64,000 nt of DNA from a virus: positions 1-64,000 of the IMG/VR virus record IMGVR_UViG_3300025684_000015. One strand, given 5' to 3'. Below the pieces are notes generated by a model, which saw only the letters and a list, made by a program, of their open reading frames with translations, was not told where the DNA came from and searched no databases. Positions 10,370-36,152 of the stretch are shown piece by piece; positions within the stretch are counted from its first letter, which is position 1; the number at the start of each line of letters is the position of its first letter. Position numbers and translations under genes: made by a program.

Positions 10370-10934
10370 CTTTTTTCAATACCATATATCCAACATTTGC
10401 TTCACCACGTTCAATCACTTTCCATCCTGGATTATTGAAGCAAAAGTCTGTTAAACATTGATCAAGTTCAGTATTTGGTAAACGAGTATCATGCGCAATA
10501 ATATACTTATTAACTCTTTTACTATGAACACTCAATTCACGTTGCATATGATATGCTTTATGATATGAATCAATAAGTAACATATCAACACTAGGTCCAA
10601 TAGACTCTAAAGAACCCGAATCCATTTCTTTAATTTTAAAAACAATTTTATTTTCTTTTACGTATTCTTCAGCAAGTGGTTGAAGAAATTTACGATATCT
10701 ACTCATATCAACATCAATAGCTTCAACGTATTTAAACCCAGCTAATAAAGCACAAGCTAAAGTACCACCTTGATGAGTACCTAACTCTGCATATGTTTTA
10801 CAATCTGAAGCATATTTCATCAAAGCATCGTGTTGTTCACAATAATCAATTCCATGTGCTTCTTCTTGCTGATCACGAATTGAAATATAAAACTCTTCTA
10901 GTGTTTTACAGTGATCTAGTTTCGCGTTAATCAT
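10362..10934 (-). CDS. SAM-dependent methyltransferase-like protein (190 aa)
   Basis: YAELGTHQGGTLACALLAG is motif I of class I methyltransferases, VEAIDVDMSRY supplies the acidic residue at the end of strand 2, and VDMLLIDSYHKAYHMQREL is the motif IV region typical of the Methyltransf_24 (sugar or O-methyltransferase) group. It overlaps both flanking glycosyltransferase genes by 8 nt, so sugar methylation is a reasonable inference. Confidence 0.7.
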   Translation of the reverse strand: MINAKLDHCKTLEEFYISIRDQQEEAHGIDYCEQHDALMKYASDCKTYAELGTHQGGTLACALLAGFKYVEAIDVDMSRYRKFLQPLAEEYVKENKIVFKIKEMDSGSLESIGPSVDMLLIDSYHKAYHMQRELSVHSKRVNKYIIAHDTRLPNTELDQCLTDFCFNNPGWKVIERGEANVGYMVLKKDV

Positions 10935-11718
10935 TTACTACTTTCCTTAATCTACTAATATCATAATTATCTGCACCTCGTAGTTGAACGTGTACAAAAC
11001 AAGGCTGTTCCCTATAATCATTTATAGGTCTATTATCGCCATTCGTGTCTGGCCTAAAAAAGATCTGACTATTCCATTTATAATCCATTAACTGCCAATC
11101 AAATTGAGGCAACATTGCATTTAAATAGTTTTGATCTCCCTGATAAAATGGTGGGAGACCAGATCTAGACATTAGATCACAATATTGTTTAAAGTCTTTA
11201 AAGCACTGTCTAGCTTTTTCTCTACCTTCTTTAGAATAGAGAACCATACCACTATTAAAAACTCGAGGACGACCAACGCTATCTCGATACAATTCGAAAC
11301 CATAATTTTTTTGAATGACATCGTACCAACGATTATCATTAGCGTTATTGATACCACCCATGTTGTGTTTAGTTCTTAAACTAGGTTGCATCCATTCTTC
11401 GCAGATACCAATCTCTTTATCGAATTCTTCAAAAATGTTTTTATTACAAATATCAACGGGAACTACATCAGTGTCACAAAACAAAATATTATCGTAATCA
11501 TCAAAAGACAAATCAAAGATCGGCTTAAAGGCACCGTAGTGAGGGTTGTACCTTCCCAAGTTTTTTCTTTGAACTCTGGCTTCTTTTGGCCAAGTTGGGT
11601 TTTGTTCGAAGACATATTCAACTCCAATTCTTTTTGAGTATTCTTCCATAAGCTGTACACCAGCAGCATTACCAGTACTTAAATTGCCTTCCCAAAATTG
11701 ATAAATTAAATTCTTCAT
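10927..11718 (-). CDS. putative GT-A glycosyltransferase with DTD motif (263 aa)
   Basis: It starts MKNLIYQFWEGN, followed by YSKRIGVEYVFEQ and NILFCDTDVVPV, the DxD site. FNSGMVLYSKEG and YQGDQNYLN resemble the acceptor and base regions of GT8-like enzymes. It is a paralogue of 12313-13095 and 9692-10369. Its N-terminus overlaps the 86-aa gene upstream by 4 nt. Confidence 0.68.
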   Translation of the reverse strand: MKNLIYQFWEGNLSTGNAAGVQLMEEYSKRIGVEYVFEQNPTWPKEARVQRKNLGRYNPHYGAFKPIFDLSFDDYDNILFCDTDVVPVDICNKNIFEEFDKEIGICEEWMQPSLRTKHNMGGINNANDNRWYDVIQKNYGFELYRDSVGRPRVFNSGMVLYSKEGREKARQCFKDFKQYCDLMSRSGLPPFYQGDQNYLNAMLPQFDWQLMDYKWNSQIFFRPDTNGDNRPINDYREQPCFVHVQLRGADNYDISRLRKVVND

Positions 11719-11975
11719 TTAAAAGATTCTACTCCACCACCATGAATATCTGGATCATAATCTGGGTTCCTTGGATCTTTTGGTTCAACCCATGTTTTAT
11801 AATATTGGAAATTTTCTTCTGGATATCCCTGTTCAACAATCCATTTAGTTAAATCAAAATCGGCTAAAATATATAAATCGTTACCAGTTCCACCAACAGC
11901 ATTTTTAGGCAAAGCTTTTGGAAAACCATAAGCCCAACCAGCCGGAGTTGGATCAATCATAAGATTTTTATCCAT
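11715..11975 (-). CDS. hypothetical protein in glycan island (86 aa)
   Basis: Not recognised. It is rich in Pro, Gly and Asp (DPTPAGWAYGFPKALPKNA, then DPRNPDYDPDIHGGG) with no catalytic motif. It lies between a cupin and a glycosyltransferase with 1- to 4-nt overlaps, so it is probably a co-translated accessory of those enzymes. Confidence 0.6.
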   Translation of the reverse strand: MDKNLMIDPTPAGWAYGFPKALPKNAVGGTGNDLYILADFDLTKWIVEQGYPEENFQYYKTWVEPKDPRNPDYDPDIHGGGVESFK

Positions 11976-12316
11976 TAGTGTGTTCTCCTACCATCAAATA
12001 CACAAACAAAATAAATCCCATCGTCGTAAGCATATACTCTATGAAACCAACCATCTGGAATCAAAACAAGATCGTTTGGATAAACCTCTTGATCATGGTG
12101 TTTACCATTTAAATCAATTAGTTCGATCTTACCACTACCACTAATAAATTGATAAACTTCTTCTTGACCCACATGCGCGTGACCACTTGTACTTTTATTT
12201 GGTTTTAGATCTGTGCTACTTACGACTAAATTATTTAGAGTCTTATTATCTATTACCGTATAGCGATCATCTTGTTTAACAATTTCACCACCAATATCAT
12301 TAATATTTAGTTTCAT
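11975..12316 (-). CDS. cupin-fold protein (113 aa)
   Basis: GHAHVGQEEVYQFISGSGKIEL is cupin motif 1 (H-x-H-x4-E) and VLIPDGWFHRVYA is motif 2 with its His. It is a single-domain cupin able to bind one metal. Family roles include sugar isomerases and epimerases, and the neighbours suggest nucleotide-sugar processing. The reaction cannot be read from sequence. Confidence 0.75.
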   Translation of the reverse strand: MKLNINDIGGEIVKQDDRYTVIDNKTLNNLVVSSTDLKPNKSTSGHAHVGQEEVYQFISGSGKIELIDLNGKHHDQEVYPNDLVLIPDGWFHRVYAYDDGIYFVCVFDGRRTH

Positions 12317-13095
12317 AGAATATCCTTCCTTAGTTGTTCTATGTTTTCTCCACGATTAGGCAATTTATCTTTAAGGAAAAAATGAACAAAATGCGCTTCT
12401 TTTATTCTTGTGCAAGCTGAATATAGAGCATTCCATTTCCAATCCATTTTTTTAATATTCATTTGTTCTTTACGAACCCAATAATTTAATAATGTTTGAT
12501 CTGTTGACCATTTCCATGGACCCAATCCATCAATAAACATTTTAAATTCTTGTCTCATAATAAAATCATAAGGAGTTTGACCATTTAGATATTTAGCAAA
12601 GTTATTCTTATTCAATACCATAAGACCCATATTCATAAATGGAAATCCAGTTTGATCGTTGTACTCCCAATCTATTTTAAGAGAACTATATTGCATTGCA
12701 GAGTAATTAAGAATTTTTGCTCTATATTCTGGTGTCATTGGCATACTTGCTTCAACAACTGCTCCAAAATCGTATTCTGCTTCTAATTCAAAAAAGATAT
12801 CAGGCGCGGTATCGCGAATGTAAATGTCAGCATCAATAATAGCAATTTGGTCATACTTATCAAAGTGCGCAAACGCGTTTTCTTTTTCGTAGATTGGTAA
12901 GAATCCACCATGTTTTTCATATGATTCGACTGATCTATTTGTTGTGAATATATCAGGTTTAATACGCAAAAGCGGTTGGGTTTGACAAATATAGTCAGCA
13001 CCAATCCGCTCCGCGTATTCTTTAACTGATTTTGTGCACCAATCATATAGTCGTGAACGTTTCCCCACGTACACTTGATAAATCAACTGTGCCAT
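12313..13095 (-). CDS. putative GT-A glycosyltransferase with DAD motif (260 aa)
   Basis: The order of motifs repeats that of its paralogues: LIYQVYVGKRSRLYDW, YAERIGADYIC, then IAIIDADIYIRD (the DxD site), FMNMGLMVLNK, and TDQTLLNYWV. It is first gene of the compact island, with a 4-nt overlap to the cupin gene downstream. Confidence 0.68.
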   Translation of the reverse strand: MAQLIYQVYVGKRSRLYDWCTKSVKEYAERIGADYICQTQPLLRIKPDIFTTNRSVESYEKHGGFLPIYEKENAFAHFDKYDQIAIIDADIYIRDTAPDIFFELEAEYDFGAVVEASMPMTPEYRAKILNYSAMQYSSLKIDWEYNDQTGFPFMNMGLMVLNKNNFAKYLNGQTPYDFIMRQEFKMFIDGLGPWKWSTDQTLLNYWVRKEQMNIKKMDWKWNALYSACTRIKEAHFVHFFLKDKLPNRGENIEQLRKDIL

Positions 13096-27808: not shown

Positions 27809-28079
27809 TATGTTTCTCAATCTTAATTACTAAGTTATCATGTCCTTTAAGTAACCTATGGTATTCACCTTTAGGTATCTCAAATTTCATATGTTCCTTT
27901 AAAAGAAAAGGTAAACAATTTTCAAATTGTAATTGCCAACCTTCACCTTCTAATACTTCTATAATTCGATCTTCTTTATCTCTGTGCCAAACATAATCTT
28001 CGCTTGGTTTAGTTACATCAAAAGTTCGAACATTCCCATCATCTATATATGGGTTACCAGAAATAACTTCCGCCACCAC
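27801..28079 (-). CDS. small cupin-like protein (92 aa)
   Basis: VWHRDKEDRIIEVLEGEGWQLQ reads like cupin motif 1 (H-x4-D/E then a G-x-x-x-x-x-G turn), and FEIPKGEYHRLLKG like motif 2 with its His. The fold call is fair, the function unknown. It overlaps the preceding DUF5872-like gene by 26 nt. Confidence 0.6.
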   Translation of the reverse strand: MVAEVISGNPYIDDGNVRTFDVTKPSEDYVWHRDKEDRIIEVLEGEGWQLQFENCLPFLLKEHMKFEIPKGEYHRLLKGHDNLVIKIEKHNG

Positions 28080-28419
28080 TCAATCCTAACTGCTTTGCAT
28101 AACGAGGTAATCTACATGACCAGTAACCTGGCTTTGTTTTATCAGTCTTATTCGCGCAATCATGTCTTGCAGCAAATGAAGCTCTTGCTTCTGGGTCGTT
28201 AATCTTTGAAGAAAGGCCACCCTTTTCATCTCCAAAATTAACCTTTACTACGTTGCCCTTTGCATTTTTAACATAGACAACATATTTTTTTGGACCACCA
28301 GATCTTTTTGGAGAGTTTAATTCTGGACCTTCTGATGCTTCAAGCATTGGTGTCTCTAAAGGAACATGTGTTCCTTCGTATAATCCAAATACAAAATCTC
28401 TAAACTTATCCAAACTCAT
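28054..28419 (-). CDS. DUF5872-like conserved protein (121 aa)
   Basis: The C-terminal 75 residues (KKYVVYVKNAKGNVVKVNFG, PEARASFAARHDC, GYWSCRLPRY) follow the pattern of a small phage domain with a Cys pair and RHxC motif (DUF5872 as I recall it). The N-terminus MSLDKFRDFVFGLYEG is helical and may be a targeting segment, though weaker than in its neighbours. Confidence 0.6.
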   Translation of the reverse strand: MSLDKFRDFVFGLYEGTHVPLETPMLEASEGPELNSPKRSGGPKKYVVYVKNAKGNVVKVNFGDEKGGLSSKINDPEARASFAARHDCANKTDKTKPGYWSCRLPRYAKQLGLSGGGSYFW

Positions 28420-28630
28420 GCCCCGCTACTCTTTTCATTTGTTTATTGAACTCTGCCTGTGATGGCTTTTGTTTATATAGTTTAATAGAAATCTCAGGAC
28501 GATCTTTACCTTTGATACGCCAGTTATAGCCTTTTTCTTTATGCTCAGGCTTAGTAGTCTTTACAACTCTACGGTCATAACCTGCTTCCCAAGTTTCAGA
28601 TCCTTCTCGAATTTCTCTAAGCTTTTTCAT
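28406..28630 (-). CDS. hypothetical protein with MKKLREIRE N-terminus (74 aa)
   Basis: A basic protein (EHKEKGYNWRIKGKDRPEIS, then LYKQKPSQAEFNKQMKRV). Its first residues contain IRE at positions 7-9, the [IL]xE pattern shared with six nearby proteins and resembling a gp21 protease site. Function unknown. Confidence 0.58.
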   Translation of the reverse strand: MKKLREIREGSETWEAGYDRRVVKTTKPEHKEKGYNWRIKGKDRPEISIKLYKQKPSQAEFNKQMKRVAGHEFG

Positions 28631-28788
28631 TACTCAGTATCTCTTAAAGCTCTTAATGCTTCAGCAATAGATCTTAATGCATGATTAATTCTTTTTTGCT
28701 TTTCAGGAGAATTTGCAAATGTTTCTTTGGCTACACCAATTAACTTAGCAGCTTCACCCAATTTATCTTTAGCCAAATTGACAGACAT
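28630..28788 (-). CDS. small helical protein (52 aa)
   Basis: The start MSVNLAKDKLGEAAK at 28788 overlaps the stop of the membrane-protein gene by one base. Two amphipathic helices (KLIGVAKETFANS and RINHALRSIAEALRALRD). Function unknown; size and coupling match its neighbours. Confidence 0.55.
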   Translation of the reverse strand: MSVNLAKDKLGEAAKLIGVAKETFANSPEKQKRINHALRSIAEALRALRDTE

Positions 28789-28955
28789 TAGTTTTCCCTT
28801 TTCCAAATAGTCCATGCTCCATATCCAATAGCGGCATAAGCTACTAGACTAGCAATCGGTTTAAAAATTAAAAATGCAATTCCTGCAGCAACTAATACTG
28901 CACCGTCTAATGTGGTGCGTTCGTTTAGTCTAGACGTAATCCATTTTTTAATCAT
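28788..28955 (-). CDS. small membrane protein (55 aa)
   Basis: The start MIKKWITSRLNERTTLD at 28955 overlaps the stop of the acidic protein gene. It has one or two membrane helices (GAVLVAAGIAFLIFKPIASLVAYAAIGYGAW) and a basic end. It is holin-sized, but nothing else supports that. Confidence 0.55.
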   Translation of the reverse strand: MIKKWITSRLNERTTLDGAVLVAAGIAFLIFKPIASLVAYAAIGYGAWTIWKREN

Positions 28956-29202
28956 CGTCTTCCTCATCTTCATCGTCGTCATCTTCATCGCCATGATCAA
29001 TATTAGAATAGAGAGATTGCATTTCAGAATGTGCTTTAGTTAATTTATTCTGCATCCATTCTGGAAATTCTCCACCTTCTTCGATATGTTCTGCAATTTC
29101 ATCTGCAGCATGCATGATGAAATCTAATTGCTTTTCTGCCATTGAAGCTTCATCTGGAGATGCAGCGTCATTTTCTTCTCTAATTACACTTAAAGATTTC
29201 AT
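28948..29202 (-). CDS. conserved acidic-tailed protein (84 aa)
   Basis: The core MAEKQLDFIMHAADEIAEHI, then GGEFPEWMQNKLTKAH, is a pattern I recognise from T4-like marine phages. The tail is a run of Asp and Glu. The N-terminus MKSLSVIREEND has an [IL]xE motif at residues 7-9, as in other candidate capsid-targeted proteins here. Function unknown. Confidence 0.6.
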   Translation of the reverse strand: MKSLSVIREENDAASPDEASMAEKQLDFIMHAADEIAEHIEEGGEFPEWMQNKLTKAHSEMQSLYSNIDHGDEDDDDEDEEDDD

Positions 29203-30533
29203 TTCTTTTTCCTTTGAGCTTCACGCTCTTTAGCCATCATTTGGCGAATTTTAGAAATCTTATCTGCTTCGCCTGGTTTTAATATTGACTTATCACTATC
29301 TGATTGTTGCTTCTTCATTGTTGCAGAATATGCTTGAGTCGACTCAGAAGTTTGCAAATCATCATCTTCCATATCACCTAAAGCAAGATCGCGGTACCGC
29401 TTTTTAACTTCAGCTCTAGTCATGCGTTCAACATCAGTAATCATTGATGGCTGTTTAACAATTTTACGAAGCTGTGATTTAACATCGCCTGGTGATCTAC
29501 CAATCATAACAATATCTGGTAAACCTGATACTGATACTTTAAAGAACATTCCACCTGCTGCTTCATCCAATTCAACTTCTTCACTACATGATTTTTGAGC
29601 TTGAATTGGTTTTTTCTTTTGCTTATCAGCCATTTTTTGAGCAGCTGATCTAGCAAGATGTCTAGCTACGTTTGATGGCTTAATGGTATTACCAAATCTA
29701 TCTTTACGTGGCTCACCAGCTTTTTTATATGGACCAGCAAAAGGAGGATTATCACCTTCGAAGGTGAAAATATTATAACCTTCATGCATATCAACATTGG
29801 TGGACTCTTTATGTACTCTATAGTCCTTGCCCATTTTAGTAGCATGCGCAGTGGCTTTCTTCAGATCACCACCGAAAGATTTTGCTGGGCCATCCTTTTT
29901 ATTGCCGATATATTTTTGAACTACATAATTCTCTTCAATAGATATTTCGTTGACTTCCACAGATTCATTAGGTGCATATGCCATAGGCTTGCCAGTTTTT
30001 GAATTCCTAATTCTATCTTTTACTGCTCCTCTATGAGTCAGAGTGATCTTGCCTTTGACACCTTTCTTTCTTAAGATCTCCATTGCATGATCTTCGTCTT
30101 TGGCATGTACGTTTCCACTTATACTTCTATGACCTACACGATAAATCTGCATTTCGTCAACCTGAGTTGCTTCCATAGACTTGACTTTTTTACGTGTACC
30201 AATTTTTCTAGTATCACCTTTATCCATCATGCCATGCATATCTTTACCTGGATCATCTTTACCATGGTAACCTTGGGCTTTTCCAGGAGCAAGCTTCTTT
30301 ACACTGCCACCTTTAGCTTTAAAGGCTGCAACTTGTTTTGCTAACTCAGCTTTCTGTTTAGGAGTCATTGCCTCTTTAACATCTTCTTTATTACTGCCAC
30401 GCTTTGCATCCATGTAAGCGGCAATTGCCATTTTGCGGCGCTCATCTTCTGATTTTCCTTTAAATTGTGGCGCGTCAGAATTTTCAAAATCTGAAATCCA
30501 CGCTTTCATTCCGTCTGATACTTTTAATGGCAT
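29199..30533 (-). CDS. large lysine-rich virion or prohead-type protein (444 aa)
   Basis: The N-terminus MPLKVSDGMKAWISDFENSD, then EDERRKMAIAAYMDAKRG, forms a small helical domain. Lys/Gly-rich linkers then separate several short domains: about 127-175 with RVGHRSISGNVHAKD, and about 320-390 with MFFKVSVSGLPDIVMIG. No enzymatic motif. The beads-on-linker composition suits a capsid-internal or core protein. The call rests on composition and neighbourhood. Confidence 0.45.
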   Translation of the reverse strand: MPLKVSDGMKAWISDFENSDAPQFKGKSEDERRKMAIAAYMDAKRGSNKEDVKEAMTPKQKAELAKQVAAFKAKGGSVKKLAPGKAQGYHGKDDPGKDMHGMMDKGDTRKIGTRKKVKSMEATQVDEMQIYRVGHRSISGNVHAKDEDHAMEILRKKGVKGKITLTHRGAVKDRIRNSKTGKPMAYAPNESVEVNEISIEENYVVQKYIGNKKDGPAKSFGGDLKKATAHATKMGKDYRVHKESTNVDMHEGYNIFTFEGDNPPFAGPYKKAGEPRKDRFGNTIKPSNVARHLARSAAQKMADKQKKKPIQAQKSCSEEVELDEAAGGMFFKVSVSGLPDIVMIGRSPGDVKSQLRKIVKQPSMITDVERMTRAEVKKRYRDLALGDMEDDDLQTSESTQAYSATMKKQQSDSDKSILKPGEADKISKIRQMMAKEREAQRKKK

Positions 30534-30537
30534 TTTT

Positions 30538-30789
30538 TTATCCTCTTACTTTAGCTGCAAGGTCTTTATCTGCCTTGCCCCACGTTCCTGATGATTTTGT
30601 TACAAATGAATTGACTCGAGCCATGCCCCATTGTTGTGGAGTGGTTCCTGGACGATGACCTGATTTCCATGCTGCCATTCCTCTATCATAGACTTTTTTC
30701 AAAATAGCATATGGCATGCCAGATTTAGCAGCTTTATTTTTAAGTCCTTCTTTCGCGGATTCTTCTAAATATTCTTTAAAATTAATCAT
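30538..30789 (-). CDS. DUF5824-like protein with capsid-targeting-like N-terminus (83 aa)
   Basis: AAKSGMPYAILKKVYDRGMA, then WKSGHRPGTTPQQWGMARVN and SSGTWGKADKDLA, matches a compact phage domain (DUF5824 as I recall). The first residues MINFKEYLEES carry F-x-x-Y-L-x-E, the pattern shared with other proteins here. The start at 30789 overlaps the end of the nucleotidyltransferase-like gene by 8 nt. Confidence 0.65.
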   Translation of the reverse strand: MINFKEYLEESAKEGLKNKAAKSGMPYAILKKVYDRGMAAWKSGHRPGTTPQQWGMARVNSFVTKSSGTWGKADKDLAAKVRG

Positions 30790-31861
30790 CGCCAAATATA
30801 TCCCTGAATTTTTTAGTATGTTTACTTGTTTTAGTTTTAGCTGTAGCATCGCCTGGAGCTGGTTTATATGCAGCTGGATCATCGTCATCCATTTTAGCTT
30901 GTTTATTAAATTGCGCTTTACGTTTGGCTTGAGTAGATTTACTTAAACCACTATGATATACTTTCTTTTCAACCATTAGGTTTTCATAACCTGGAGCTTG
31001 ATATGGAGCATTAACATATGAATCTCTACGCATGTCATCTGGATTTACTTTATCAACACCGTCTAACCATTTGCGCCATCTTTCACCCTTGGATTCTACA
31101 ATAAGATAATTAGCTCCAAGATATTCGATAGTAGCTACAATGCCATTTTCTTTAATAACAACTTCTTCACCAACACTGAATAAATTATCGCGCATATACG
31201 ATTCGCGAATTTCAGAAACAGGCTCAAGTTGAATGTGATTTTTAAAGTTGTTTTGTTCTTTAAGACCAATACCTTTTCTTACAGCATTATATACAGCTTT
31301 TGTATCTGCTGTAGAAAGCTTTTTAGGCATATATTGCGCGAATGTAGTGAAATCGCCATTTTCAGCAAAGCCTCTTAGTTTTGTACCTGAAACACCTTCA
31401 ACACCCTTTGAATCTGGATCTCTGTTACCAGCATTAAGTACTGAAATATTTTCAAAGTTATAAAAGCCATGCTTACTCTTTACACCATTATACTTATTCA
31501 GTAAAATATCGTATTCTCGTATTCTATCTGAGCCAGCACAAATAACAACCTTTTTGAAACCTTCTTTATGAAAAATTGTCATAAGATTAAGAAGTGTGCT
31601 AGCACCTTTATCTAACATAATTTGGCGAGCATATTGTGGAAAACCTTTACGTGCAAACTTTACTTTTTGCACGAATGGAATAGGATTCTTTTTGTCGTCT
31701 TCTGATTGAGTAAGATAAATTCTAAATGGATTATTGCCAGCTTTTTGCTTAAGAAAGTCTAATAATTTCTCATGGCCAGCCGTTGGTGGATTCATACGAC
31801 CCCACACAAAATAAAGAGTTTTCTCTTCTTCAATTAAATATGATTTGAATGAACTGATCAT
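30782..31861 (-). CDS. NMN-adenylyltransferase-like nucleotidyltransferase with C-terminal extension (359 aa)
   Basis: YFVWGRMNPPTAGHEKLLDFL is the HxGH-type nucleotide-binding motif (G-x-x-NPPTxGH), and VSGTKLRGFAENGDF the ISxTxxR-type phosphate-binding segment of the NadM/CTP-transferase family. That domain ends near residue 200. The rest, including a small beta domain (EEVVIKENGIVATIEYLG), is phage-specific. The N-terminus MISSFKSYLIEEE resembles a capsid-targeting peptide. It could act on NAD metabolism in the new host cell if injected, which is inference. Confidence 0.7.
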   Translation of the reverse strand: MISSFKSYLIEEEKTLYFVWGRMNPPTAGHEKLLDFLKQKAGNNPFRIYLTQSEDDKKNPIPFVQKVKFARKGFPQYARQIMLDKGASTLLNLMTIFHKEGFKKVVICAGSDRIREYDILLNKYNGVKSKHGFYNFENISVLNAGNRDPDSKGVEGVSGTKLRGFAENGDFTTFAQYMPKKLSTADTKAVYNAVRKGIGLKEQNNFKNHIQLEPVSEIRESYMRDNLFSVGEEVVIKENGIVATIEYLGANYLIVESKGERWRKWLDGVDKVNPDDMRRDSYVNAPYQAPGYENLMVEKKVYHSGLSKSTQAKRKAQFNKQAKMDDDDPAAYKPAPGDATAKTKTSKHTKKFRDIFGDD

Positions 31862-32244
31862 CGTTTTCTAGCAATCTCCGCGCGCCGTTTCTTTGGCATT
31901 AAGCGGCGTTGCATAATAGCAATACGTTGTTGCCAACCACCTTGCTTTAAACGCTTTTCAATTTGTTTCTTTTTAGCTACTGAGACTTCAGATTTTTTAT
32001 TACCTGAGCCAGCCAATTTGTCTGCAAATGTTGCTCGAGCTGCTCTGCGAGATCTACCCTTTAAAACCTTAGTAGATGCTAGCCTTCTCATGGCTCTTTT
32101 CTTTGCCATGGCCAAGCGAGTCTTACGCCGTTTTGCTGATCGTGCTAATTTACGACGACCTTGAATAGAGAGTTCTTCGCTGACATCATCTTTATTGTCA
32201 ACACGGTTCTCTATAATGAATTTTTTAAATGACATTGATGCCAT
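31858..32244 (-). CDS. very basic protein with capsid-targeting-like N-terminus (128 aa)
   Basis: After MASMSFKKFIIENR the protein is about one third Lys and Arg (GRRKLARSAKRRKTRLAMAK, RLMPKKRRAEIARKR). It probably binds nucleic acid, for example packaged DNA. The second Met (32235) gives MSFKKFIIE, closer to the shared motif. Function not known. Confidence 0.6.
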   Translation of the reverse strand: MASMSFKKFIIENRVDNKDDVSEELSIQGRRKLARSAKRRKTRLAMAKKRAMRRLASTKVLKGRSRRAARATFADKLAGSGNKKSEVSVAKKKQIEKRLKQGGWQQRIAIMQRRLMPKKRRAEIARKR

Positions 32245-32279
32245 TTTATATTCTCCCTGGTTTATCCCATTTAATATAT

Positions 32280-33506
32280 TTATCGGCCAGTTTTATCCCA
32301 GCCTTTCAAAACGTCGGGTGAAAAGTTAGCATAGGAAAATTCCATCCTATCAACAATTTTCACCGCATCACCACCAAGTTTATCGATTGCTACATAACCT
32401 TCTGGATCTGTTGTACGATAACCTTTTTTAGTTTTAAGAAAAGTACTAACAGTACTCAACTTATTTAATCTATTTATAAGAATTAGTTTAGCTAAAACAA
32501 GTTCTCTTTGCAATTCAAACATATTTTCTAGTGATTTTTTATTTGAATCAGAAAAGAAAGTAAGTAATGCATCTAACTGTTTTTGTTGAGCAGACTTTCC
32601 TTTTTCTGTTTTACGTTTATCAATTTCTTTTTGGTATTTTTGTTTAATAAATTGAATAAGAGATTGTGTTCTTTTATTTGCAGGTGGTGGTACTTCACCT
32701 TTCCGCACAAACGAATTAGCATGAGTTTCAATATGTCTTGCTAGCGTTTCGTTTGCTTCTAATGTTTTAAGAGTTGAACCTGCAATTTTATTAAAAAGAA
32801 ATCCAGCATTTTTTAGATGGCTATTTACTTCATTTGTTTCTTTTTCACTCATTGTCAGATTAGTCATGTCTCTTAGCATAGCATCTTGAGACCAAACGTT
32901 TGGTGACTTATTTAACTTTGCAACATTAACACCATAACCCGCTTTCATCGTTTCAAATGTTTTTCCAGTATACGTTGTATGCCAGACAATTCCGATTTTA
33001 GCACTTTTAATTGCTTTAGCTGCTTCCGATTTCTCAGGAACTGCATAGACAATAGTATTCGGATGGAATGTAAGATACGATTCACCCGCAATTTTACTCG
33101 TCTTAAGATCTCCTGGGCCATACAAAAAATCTCCTTGAATGACTCCTTTAATACCCAGTGCGGGTAAATATTTAAGAGCTAATTTAAGTTTATCTGCCAA
33201 ATCACCAGAAGTGTCAGCTTCTACATCGGCATTTGTCTTATATACTTTAGGGTTAACGTTAAAGATACCTTTCTTTGCTACAAAGAATTTTCCATCACGT
33301 GGATCGATACCAGCAAAAATAGCTGGTGCTCCATCCCATTTAACTGAAACATTACCAGCATGTTTGCCACTTAGCATATCACGAAGAGAACGTAGAGCTA
33401 AAATGGCATCACGTGTTCCTTTGACTCCACCGTAGATAACCTTATCCTCGATGTGAGTCATATGGGTGTTTTTTTGTTCAGTTATAAAAGAACTAAATTT
33501 TTCCAT
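32280..33506 (-). CDS. ligase-like KxDG nucleotidyltransferase, DUF6267-like (408 aa)
   Basis: VSVKWDGAPAIFAGID (Lys 56) is motif I of the covalent nucleotidyltransferases (DNA/RNA ligases, capping enzymes), FVAKKGIF fits motif III-like, and VIQGDFLYG matches a motif IV-like E/QGD segment. The family recurs in T4-like marine phages (DUF6267 as I recall), activity untested. The start MEKFSSFITEQK at 33506 carries the F-x-x-F-I-x-E N-terminus, so it may be packaged and cleaved. It overlaps the previous stop as TAATG. Confidence 0.65.
   Translation of the reverse strand: MEKFSSFITEQKNTHMTHIEDKVIYGGVKGTRDAILALRSLRDMLSGKHAGNVSVKWDGAPAIFAGIDPRDGKFFVAKKGIFNVNPKVYKTNADVEADTSGDLADKLKLALKYLPALGIKGVIQGDFLYGPGDLKTSKIAGESYLTFHPNTIVYAVPEKSEAAKAIKSAKIGIVWHTTYTGKTFETMKAGYGVNVAKLNKSPNVWSQDAMLRDMTNLTMSEKETNEVNSHLKNAGFLFNKIAGSTLKTLEANETLARHIETHANSFVRKGEVPPPANKRTQSLIQFIKQKYQKEIDKRKTEKGKSAQQKQLDALLTFFSDSNKKSLENMFELQRELVLAKLILINRLNKLSTVSTFLKTKKGYRTTDPEGYVAIDKLGGDAVKIVDRMEFSYANFSPDVLKGWDKTGR
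32471..32478 (-). promoter_or_regulatory. possible late promoter TATAAATA (intragenic)
   Basis: Exact octamer on the minus strand within the ligase-like gene, 227 bp upstream of the basic protein gene. It could be a chance match. Confidence 0.3.
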
Positions 33507-35089
33507 TATCGTACCTCGATCCAACCTAAACTGGCCCAACCGTCTTTGTTGGCGCCGGTTGCGGCAACAGCGATTACAAATGTAGCAGGTGTGTCACCCA
33601 GCGTAGTTGTGGTATTTCTCGTCAACTGTGTGATAGCACGTTCTGGTAGTTTATATGCAGTACCTTGGTTGCCGGAACTAACATACACCGTGTCTAAAAT
33701 AGTTCCGTTGCTCAGTGCGGTACCGGTAATGTTATATTCCACAGCACTTTCAGAATCATAACTGATCCAAGTGCCACCTGTGATGACAGCACCTTCCAAT
33801 ACCCTAATAAAGATATTTGTATTATCTAACGTTGCTCCAGCATAAAAGTCTGGTATGACCACTGAGTTGAGTGCGGTACTTTTTAATCTAATAGCAACCA
33901 CAGGATAGAATGTGTTGGCTGAGCTGAGTGTGTGCCCTGTGATTGGACTTGACTGACTCTTCTGCCTACCTATTAGTGTGGTTGTACCCTCTGAAGTAAA
34001 TGAATGTGAACCTTGCCAAAAGTAATGTGGCCCAGAAGAAACCCCTGTGACATTGGCCAGTTCCACCCTTACTGGTAGTGCAGCATTTCCTGACCATGTA
34101 TTTTCAATTCTATTAGCATGATTAAATTTGTGTATTGCATGAGCATTATTGTCAATAACAAATTTAAACTCTACCTGTCCTGCCCCATACCATTCATATT
34201 CAATAATGATTTGTTGTATGGCAGAGGGATTAAATACGATACCACTCGGACCTGTACCATCCAGTTTGTCATCGCTCCAATCATCACGAGCAACACGAGT
34301 TTCAACTATTCCTCCAGATGTATTTCTGCGAATCACACAGTAAAATGTAGACCCTTCTTCTTCAAAGTATGCGCCATTGCCCTCATCAAATAACCCAACG
34401 CGTCTACGAATACCAGGAAGAAGTGGATACCAACGAAATACCATAGACATTTCGCTTTGCCGTCCTGGTATATATCTCTGAACACGCTTGGTTTGGCGTT
34501 TAATCTCATCACCTGCTGTACCGCCCACTTCGAGTAAAACCATAGCCTGATATTCGTCATGCGCGGCACTGGCTGTTCCTGAAATCTGTTCGTCCCAGAT
34601 GTCGTCATCTTTGCTTTGTGTATATGTAGCAAAGTCTGTTAATTCGAATGTAGACACCTTGCGACGGTTTTTAGAAGTGTGTTGTACAGTATCGTCATCA
34701 ACCAACAACACTTGCTTACCCCAAGGATTTACGTCAGTTCCGATAACTTTAAGTGGATTGCCCACATCATTCTTAACTTCAACTTCAGGTATACTAGTAA
34801 CATTGACGTTAATATGAGAAGCACTATCAAGCATTAAGTTAAAAGTCTGACCGACGATATCAACGTGTAATGGATCACCTTCGTCATTGCTGACTTCCAC
34901 TTCACCAGGGATTGACACGGGCCCAGTAATTGTAATTGATTCACCGCCAATAGAAACAGGCAATGGATTATCTGAATCAACGATGACTCCACTTCTATTT
35001 GCAGCAAGCATCATGACTTCAAAAAGGTCATCGTTTCTTGATGGGCCATTTCTTAGAAAATCATTACGGATTTTACTAAATTGTGCCAT
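33506..35089 (-). CDS. large beta-rich virion structural protein (527 aa)
   Basis: The N-terminal 130 residues contain degenerate repeats of the form V-x-I-x-G...x-V-x-V-S/T (ITITGPVSIPGEVEVSNDEG, INVNVTSIPEVEVKNDVGNP), typical of fibre or decoration proteins. A jelly-roll-like region follows, with alternating hydrophobic strands and few charges. Base use is more GC-rich than the neighbours. No enzymatic motif. It is probably a tail fibre, neck or outer-capsid protein of T4-like marine phages. The exact part cannot be fixed. Confidence 0.6.
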   Translation of the reverse strand: MAQFSKIRNDFLRNGPSRNDDLFEVMMLAANRSGVIVDSDNPLPVSIGGESITITGPVSIPGEVEVSNDEGDPLHVDIVGQTFNLMLDSASHINVNVTSIPEVEVKNDVGNPLKVIGTDVNPWGKQVLLVDDDTVQHTSKNRRKVSTFELTDFATYTQSKDDDIWDEQISGTASAAHDEYQAMVLLEVGGTAGDEIKRQTKRVQRYIPGRQSEMSMVFRWYPLLPGIRRRVGLFDEGNGAYFEEEGSTFYCVIRRNTSGGIVETRVARDDWSDDKLDGTGPSGIVFNPSAIQQIIIEYEWYGAGQVEFKFVIDNNAHAIHKFNHANRIENTWSGNAALPVRVELANVTGVSSGPHYFWQGSHSFTSEGTTTLIGRQKSQSSPITGHTLSSANTFYPVVAIRLKSTALNSVVIPDFYAGATLDNTNIFIRVLEGAVITGGTWISYDSESAVEYNITGTALSNGTILDTVYVSSGNQGTAYKLPERAITQLTRNTTTTLGDTPATFVIAVAATGANKDGWASLGWIEVR

Positions 35090-35121
35090 TATACTTCCTT
35101 TACCTTTGAACTTATAGTTAT

Positions 35122-35150
35122 ATTATACCAAATATTCTGCTAAAAGTACA
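35122..35150 (-). promoter_or_regulatory. weak sigma70-like promoter
   Basis: TGTACT, 17 bp, TATAAT upstream of the 527-aa structural gene. The -35 departs from the TTTACA consensus of the others. Confidence 0.5.
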
Positions 35151-35168
35151 CAGTTTTTTTCAATTAAT

Positions 35169-36152
35169 TTAAATTTCTTTTGTTGTACTAACAGTTTTTG
35201 CTTTTGGAAAAATACCAACTCTAGCTTTTGATAAAAACTTTCCAGCAATATTAGCACCACGATCTGTTGTATAACGAGCAAAAAATACTGGCTCATAACC
35301 AGCACCAACTAAGGGAGATCCATTTCTACCAGAGTGCGTAGATTTGATTTTATAAACTGAGCCGCTTTTGACTAATTTCATATCACCTTGATGAAATTCA
35401 TCGACGTTATTTCTACCACGAGATTTTCCAAAATCAATACCATACACTGACTTCATGATTAAGTCTTTATTTTTACAAATACGATAAACACTTTGCCCTG
35501 AGCTTAATCCCTCTGGAAACATATCTATTATATCAGTCATAAATTGTTTTACTTCTGAGTTATTACTCAAAGAGCGATCGCTTAATCCGCCATATTGTTG
35601 AAAGTGTTGTGGTTTAGATCCGGCCTTGTGGGACAACCATGCTACTTCTTGTCCCATAGCATTTACAAAATGAAAGTCTGCTTTAGGAACACCTGGTGTA
35701 GACTCAATCCCACAAATCTCAATTGTTCTTCCACCAACATTTATTTTAATTTCTGCTTCATTTTCTTTTTCAATTGCTTTTTCTATTTCAATTCTAAATT
35801 TAGTTAAAGCTGCATCTTCAGCTGCTGTACCTGAGCCAGCTCCTTTACCACCAAGAGATGCATCTTTAAGAAAGTCATTAGGAAATACAAGATTAGCATT
35901 TCTACCATTTAGCTTTCCTGGCAATGTAACCTTATATCCTTTTGGAGGATTAGCAATCTGAGATACTAATTCTTCTGCTGCTTTAGAATTTTTGTCAACA
36001 TAGAACTCACCCTTTTTGACTAAGAATCCTTTAGTATTTTTGATTTTGTCAATAACAATCGGATCTCTACCACGGCGAGTAATGTCACTTAATTTAAGCT
36101 CATTATAGCTTGCCATTGCGTCCTCCGTTATATACTGTCTAAACTTTAACAT
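35169..36152 (-). CDS. conserved phage protein with capsid-targeting-like N-terminus (327 aa)
   Basis: MLKFRQYITEDA has the shared F-x-x-Y-I-x-E pattern, and a late promoter lies 34 bp upstream, supporting the start at 36152. A second ATG at 36116 (MASYNELKL) has a better GGAGGA site and would lack the peptide. The middle holds GVPKADFHFVNAMGQEVAWL followed by SHKAG, where D...(S/E)xK could be a PD-(D/E)XK nuclease centre. A DNA-acting internal protein is a reasonable guess, not shown. Confidence 0.55.
   Translation of the reverse strand: MLKFRQYITEDAMASYNELKLSDITRRGRDPIVIDKIKNTKGFLVKKGEFYVDKNSKAAEELVSQIANPPKGYKVTLPGKLNGRNANLVFPNDFLKDASLGGKGAGSGTAAEDAALTKFRIEIEKAIEKENEAEIKINVGGRTIEICGIESTPGVPKADFHFVNAMGQEVAWLSHKAGSKPQHFQQYGGLSDRSLSNNSEVKQFMTDIIDMFPEGLSSGQSVYRICKNKDLIMKSVYGIDFGKSRGRNNVDEFHQGDMKLVKSGSVYKIKSTHSGRNGSPLVGAGYEPVFFARYTTDRGANIAGKFLSKARVGIFPKAKTVSTTKEI

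Follow-up and report, generated by a model that had tools for sequence, protein, structure and literature searches.

The closest described counterparts of the signal reported here are the internal proteins (IPs) of bacteriophage T4. In translations of the T4 record, both IPII and IPIII begin with MKTYQEFIAE, and the T4 gene matching IPI, which we take to be IPI, begins with MKTFKEFTSTTTPVSTITE, a spaced layout (MKTFKEF...ITE19). According to a review of the work of L. Black, ten residues of IPIII are enough for packaging, and mutagenesis showed that targeting depends most on residues 4 and 7, and processing on residues 8 and 10 (PMC9026906). IPIII of T4 influences head assembly too, and it has already been suggested that T4 relatives use such a tag for varied cargo (PMC9026906). 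The giant phages SPN3US and phiKZ are alike in that a related prohead protease cuts C-terminal to Glu and a large set of proteins is injected (PMC9026906), but their protease and cleavage motif are divergent.

We analyzed 64,000 nucleotides of viral DNA (the window) from the start of a 97,886-base IMG/VR record, G000. The rest of the record holds head genes in T4 order, gp18, gp19, gp20, a gp67-like gene, gp21, gp22, and gp23 (the names of gp18 to gp20 are our own reading of the sequences), and the phage is therefore a T4-like myovirus. Its gp21-type prohead protease (Peptidase_S77, PF03420; E 1e-39) lies at record positions 87407-87835; in most phages of the marine gp21 loci, gp21 has a V[LI]TE-type propeptide site of its own. 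For P2, a DUF6267 protein of the window, the closest annotated relative comes from C48C1 (62.7% identity), which is classed under Kyanoviridae.

A sequence-only reading of the window had singled out seven proteins, here P1 to P7, that seemed to share an FxxY/F-[IL]xE start, and had proposed them as candidates for capsid-targeted, injected proteins. All seven N-termini are present, on the minus strand, to which all coordinates of P1 to P9 below refer. P1 to P5 fit the pattern; the aromatic pair is missing from P6 and P7, whose starts make up a shorter class, LxxIRE. A single class of seven is thereby ruled out. The likeness to T4 that had been drawn stands: P1 to P5 match the start of IPII and IPIII, and the residues critical in T4 (4, 7, 8, and 10) are the constrained columns. 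The two systems share the N-terminal position, the aromatic residues 4 and 7, the [IL]xE end, and a protease of the same family. They differ in cargo, which consists of small IPs in T4 and of NMNAT-like, DUF6267, DUF5824, and P1 families here, and in that packaging, cleavage, and injection are proven for T4 only. With aromatic residues at about positions 4 and 7, a hydrophobic one at position 8, and E at position 10, the tag on P1 to P5 has the makeup of a capsid-targeting sequence.

We defined a strict long-class pattern as M.{1,4}[FYW]xx[FYW][ILVM]xE at a gene start, counting P1 from an upstream ATG that is conserved among its homologues. Across the 97.9-kb record the pattern marks P1 to P5 and none of the other gene starts, against the objection, raised in the sequence-only reading itself, that it might be equally common elsewhere. 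From the frequency of the strict pattern inside proteins, 0.09 such starts are expected and 5 are observed (P = 3.5e-8). We then took the long pattern with any final residue at called starts and asked how often that residue is E. In nine genomes, all with a confirmed Peptidase_S77 (G000, G001, C48C1, HTVC008M, KVP40, T4, Syn9, S-SCSM1, and S-CREM2), this was so in 23 of 37 matches, against a background of 7.6% E among N-terminal residues (P = 3.5e-17); T7 and P-SSP7 gene starts gave zero long-pattern matches. Among 80 marine loci with a DUF6267 gene, 116 of the 140 distinct N-termini have E as the final residue. Since homologues are non-independent samples, the P values are only guides. When the tag was removed from the 142 tagged proteins of both classes in these 80 loci, they fell into 22 clusters without mutual similarity, in agreement with the earlier claim that the pattern spans unrelated folds.

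P1 (35169..36152; 327 aa; phrog_13937) begins with MLKFRQYITE (36123-36152), with a predicted cut after E10. F4 and E10 hardly vary across 18 homologues, in contrast to the variable residues 11 to 25; a homologue in locus L025 has no tag. E112, D159, and K176 of P1 form a PD-(D/E)xK-like pattern. By eye, P1 looked like a homologue of S-SCSM1 ORF90, but a profile comparison did not bear this out. P2 (32280..33506; 408 aa; DUF6267, Pfam E 1e-104) carries MEKFSSFITE (33477-33506), and only M1, F4, and E10 of its first ten residues are invariant among 53 DUF6267 homologues. It had been called ligase-like; the KWDGAPA motif, the sole basis of that name, is present, but no structural match backs it. 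AlphaFold models of P1 and P2 of modest quality (pLDDT 77.5 and 71.8; pTM about 0.5) had no PDB match, and PDB sequence searches with both returned nothing convincing, so we regard the PD-(D/E)xK-like pattern and KWDGAPA as leads.

P3 (31858..32235; 125 aa, or 128 aa from an alternative start at 32244, MASMSFKKFIIE) begins with MSFKKFIIE (32209-32235) and is indeed very basic, as had been noted, with 43 K/R and 10 D/E in the 128-residue form; it is likely a DNA-binding protein. Its homologue in C48C1 begins with MLSFKQFVSE, and in other P3 homologues the tag is frequently degenerate or missing. P4 (30782..31861; 359 aa) is an NMNAT/cytidylyltransferase-like protein with the tag MISSFKSYLIE (31829-31861) and a predicted cut after E11 or E12. 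All of the 29 homologues compared share F5 and E11, and likewise G21-T27, G29, H30, S158, K161, and R163, and the nucleotidyltransferase motifs GRMNPPTxGH and a C-terminal SxxKxR are intact. The NMNAT-like assignment made from the sequence alone is borne out by PHROG cytidyltransferase families (phrog_3041, E 1e-61) and by the NMNAT-type GRMNPPTxGH; Pfam CTP_transf_like scored below its cut-off and a PDB sequence search with P4 gave no match. Our best reading is that P4 would be an NMN adenylyltransferase or a close relative. P5 (30538..30789; 83 aa) is a DUF5824 protein, as proposed (Pfam E 1e-17), and begins with MINFKEYLEE (30760-30789); among the matches listed, many homologues keep the tag and in others it is degenerate. 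Taken over the families, F4/E10 (P1 and P2) or F5/E11 (P4) are invariant or nearly so and most other tag positions vary.

We add P9 (28054..28419; 121 aa; phrog_7595), absent from the original seven, as a candidate eighth member. It begins with MSLDKFRDFVFGLYE (28375-28419), in which F6, F9, and LYE15 follow the layout of T4 IPI, and its homologue in C48C1 bears a perfect tag, MKKFKQYIDE. P9 thus probably carries the spaced IPI version of the signal.

P6 (28948..29202; 84 aa) and P7 (28406..28630; 74 aa) begin with MKSLSVIRE (29176-29202) and MKKLREIRE (28604-28630). We interpret this shorter class, with less confidence than the long one, as a putative related signal for core association and cleavage. 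In the letter control, the residue after [FYWL]xx[IL]R is E in 8 of 23 instances (P = 2e-4), and in the marine loci, with F/Y/W at the first position, in 26 of 33. Some P6 homologues begin with MKSFFQIREE or MKTFKQLREA, and P7 homologues in L043 and L045 bear the long class (MIKFKQFISE and MISFKQFMVE). The 68-residue gene adjoining gp21 in G000 (record 87909-88115) begins with MKQFSQLRE, which matches [FL]xx[IL]RE, and the gene in this position starts with F/Lxx[ILVMF]xE, typically MKTFxQ[IL]RE, at 47 of the 74 marine gp21 loci. The counterpart of this gene by position in T4 is gp68, a core protein. It might still be that the LxxIRE starts of P6 and P7 are coincidental and that the tag is limited to P1 to P5 and perhaps P9: neither protein has either aromatic residue, and several of their homologues carry neither class. 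Given the enrichment of E and the long-class tag on some P7 homologues, we consider this somewhat unlikely.

Between P6 and P5 lies P8 (29199..30533; 444 aa), which is untagged in G000; long P8-related proteins of other phages begin with the short-class signal. The long P8-type proteins (window 29199-30533; L083 8407-10338) contain units joined where [LIV][DSN]E meets [ILV]S, with E at the P1 position of the junction in 20 of 21 cases. They might be polyproteins that gp21 would cut into several peptides.

The tag behaves as a transferable element that the fold can do without, present on unrelated proteins and absent from homologues that begin at its cut site. P2 reads MEKFSSFITE up to the predicted cut and QKNTHMTHIED after it, and untagged DUF6267 homologues start right there: P-HM2 gp162 begins with MSKNTHLEHLED, S-CREM2 gp87 with MNKATKPLTHIEHPED, and S-SCSM1 ORF257 with MQNKHQEHPED. 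Directly upstream of DUF6267 is a slot occupied in various phages by at least six families that have tagged members and are unrelated to one another; these proteins have only the tag in common. HTVC008M keeps the cassette and has no gene with the strict tag; in this phage (NC_020484 102133-116426, L114 and L115) the NMNAT and DUF5824 parts are fused into one protein of 596 aa. In cyanophages the homologous cassette sits between gp41/mazG and gp61/nrdA. T4 has between its genes 41 and 61, roughly in the position of the cyanophage cassette, gene 61.1 (annotated hypothetical; NC_000866 19130-18966; locus L248), which begins with a perfect tag, MKTFKEFIKE. Right after gp24 and gp55 of KVP40, KVP40.0065 and KVP40.0066 (NC_005083 37733-39834, locus L163) begin with MLGNFDSFLSE and MKQFCNFLAE, and several further KVP40 genes have spaced IPI-like starts.

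Is the tagged cargo found in virions? Published mass spectrometry places homologues of P4 in purified virions of three cyanophages: T4-GC190 (gp190) of S-SM1 (PMC3037559), ORF91 of S-SCSM1 (PMC9602691), and gp154 of S-CREM2 (Table 3 of PMC10665884). All three NMNAT/cytidylyltransferase proteins are homologous to P4 in profile comparisons (E 1e-48 to 1e-74), and each has a tag, MKKFSAFLNE in S-SM1, MKSFLQFLKE in S-SCSM1, and MKNFSSFLTE in S-CREM2. The parts of these reports that deal with the virion NMNAT give no packaging signal; the tag supplies a mechanism. Tagged P4 homologues of three other phages have thus been detected in virions; in G000 itself the tagged proteins are predicted virion components.

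With the exception of the endolysins, the other named virion enzymes of S-CREM2 are tagged as well: a SAM hydrolase (MKDFDSFLEE), an APH-like kinase (MKRFDAFLTE), and a Cas9-like protein, which has LRFASFMAE at residues 17-25. The small gp13 begins with MKDLHSFLTE. Together the SAM hydrolase, Cas9-like nuclease, APH-like kinase, and gp13 form another cluster of tagged proteins from the virion (OR473000 3837-13331, L095), plausibly injected anti-defense proteins. We also trained a tag scoring matrix on marine loci only and applied it to S-CREM2. Ranks 1 to 3 among its 184 called genes went to the cytidylyltransferase, the SAM hydrolase, and the kinase, all of them virion proteins and non-structural enzymes (P = 0.02, a value that rests on three genes). 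Over all 52 S-CREM2 virion proteins, the score difference from other genes was not significant (P = 0.09), because most of these are tail or shell parts. In S-SCSM1, the virion-associated ORFs 90, 92, and 93 of the related cassette have no clear tag, which speaks against a packaging tag, as does the HTVC008M cassette; ORF93 (MK867354 91626-91835, L094) has a tag-like sequence at its end, ...RTFKEFLEYIE.

These data bear on whether the tagged proteins are instead parts of the core or scaffold, which would dock by the tag, be cut by gp21, and help to assemble the head or condense the DNA instead of being delivered as effectors. The histone-like charge of P3 suits such a role, as does the influence of T4 IPIII on head assembly (PMC9026906), and the short-class signal is common on the small gene beside gp21, in the place of gp68 in T4. 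However, some of the cargo, such as P4, is enzyme-like and keeps its motifs intact, the cargo exchanges freely in one slot, unlike core structural parts, and the top tagged virion proteins of S-CREM2 are enzymes. We therefore hold that a purely structural role is improbable.

Far less probable still is that the tag docks proteins on another late complex of phage or host and that their presence in virion lists reflects contamination. The authors of the S-CREM2 and S-SCSM1 studies do allow that their lists may include co-purified contaminants (PMC10665884, PMC9602691). Against this, the tag reproduces the residue requirements of T4, cleaved E included, and a tagged P4 homologue recurs in three independent proteomes. 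Moreover, the untagged DUF6267 homologues S-CREM2 gp87 and S-SCSM1 ORF257 are missing from the virion lists of their own phages, which do contain the tagged P4 homologues. This natural control is suggestive and not proof, because it comprises only two families in two phages. Chance, composition, or a translation-start bias toward short hydrophobic N-termini has a negligible probability: the pattern was picked after the set had been seen and loose versions of it match chance starts too, but the letter control rules this origin out by its specificity for E at one position, the five starts in G000 far exceed expectation, and the tag is conserved across divergent homologues in the P1, P2, and P4 families.

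We conclude, with a probability of roughly 0.86, that the N-terminal peptide common to these proteins is a capsid-targeting sequence of the T4 type and that its cargo is packed, trimmed, and delivered with the DNA. Since T4 loads its head by such a tag and tagged relatives occur in purified virions, the enzymes are probably particle-borne and delivered with DNA. The original interpretation therefore holds in part: the T4-type tag, the presence of gp21, and the specificity of the motif support it, and packaging of tagged proteins is well supported by the virion lists of relatives; for the G000 phage, we infer docking, cleavage, and injection by analogy with T4. A T4-type late promoter octamer, TATAAATA, lies 33 nt upstream of P1 (36186..36193, minus strand). 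It is also found upstream of the gene adjoining gp21, of gp19, and of gp18. The record has 14 copies of the octamer, 13 of them on the minus strand, where most genes lie. Late expression of P1 together with the head genes is thus predicted. The cargo genes would be transcribed late from this promoter alongside the head genes, and the aromatic face of the peptide (residues near 4 and 7) would dock each protein on the gp22-based core as the prohead forms. By trimming after [IL]xE, gp21 would then free the mature protein inside the head; DNA would be packed around it, and both would enter the host together at infection. P1 to P5 would use the full signal, P9 probably the spaced IPI version, and P6 and P7 the shorter F/L-x-x-[IL]-R-E. 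Elsewhere in the window, at 10927-13095, two ORFs begin with MKNLIYQFWEG and MAQLIYQVYVG; they belong to a long minus-strand run of ORFs of 190-270 aa at about 5-18 kb.

Packaging by the tag is known from T4, and NMNAT is known from cyanophage virions; the second signal class and the swap slot are new details. In the open-access literature, we found no paper that names DUF6267 or DUF5824 and none that links the T4 tag to marine phages or to the cargo of P1 to P5. The sea is rich in T4-like phages, and studies of their virions have repeatedly met "non-structural" enzymes that are either carried or merely stuck to the particle. A sequence rule proven in T4 picks such proteins from DNA alone, and for each it offers a mechanism of packaging and predicts the mature N-terminus, so that the choice between contaminant and injected protein becomes testable on existing mass-spectrometry files. 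A bolder reading, which we consider rather unlikely, is that marine T4-like phages have a general delivery system in which a 10-residue tag turns any late protein into an injected effector, with a cargo slot next to DUF6267 for the exchange of unrelated tagged proteins. An NMNAT-like cargo would then arrive with the DNA and could sustain the NAD of the host immediately, for instance when defenses deplete it. Candidate early effectors that the tag points to in T4-like genomes include T4 61.1 and the KVP40 proteins.
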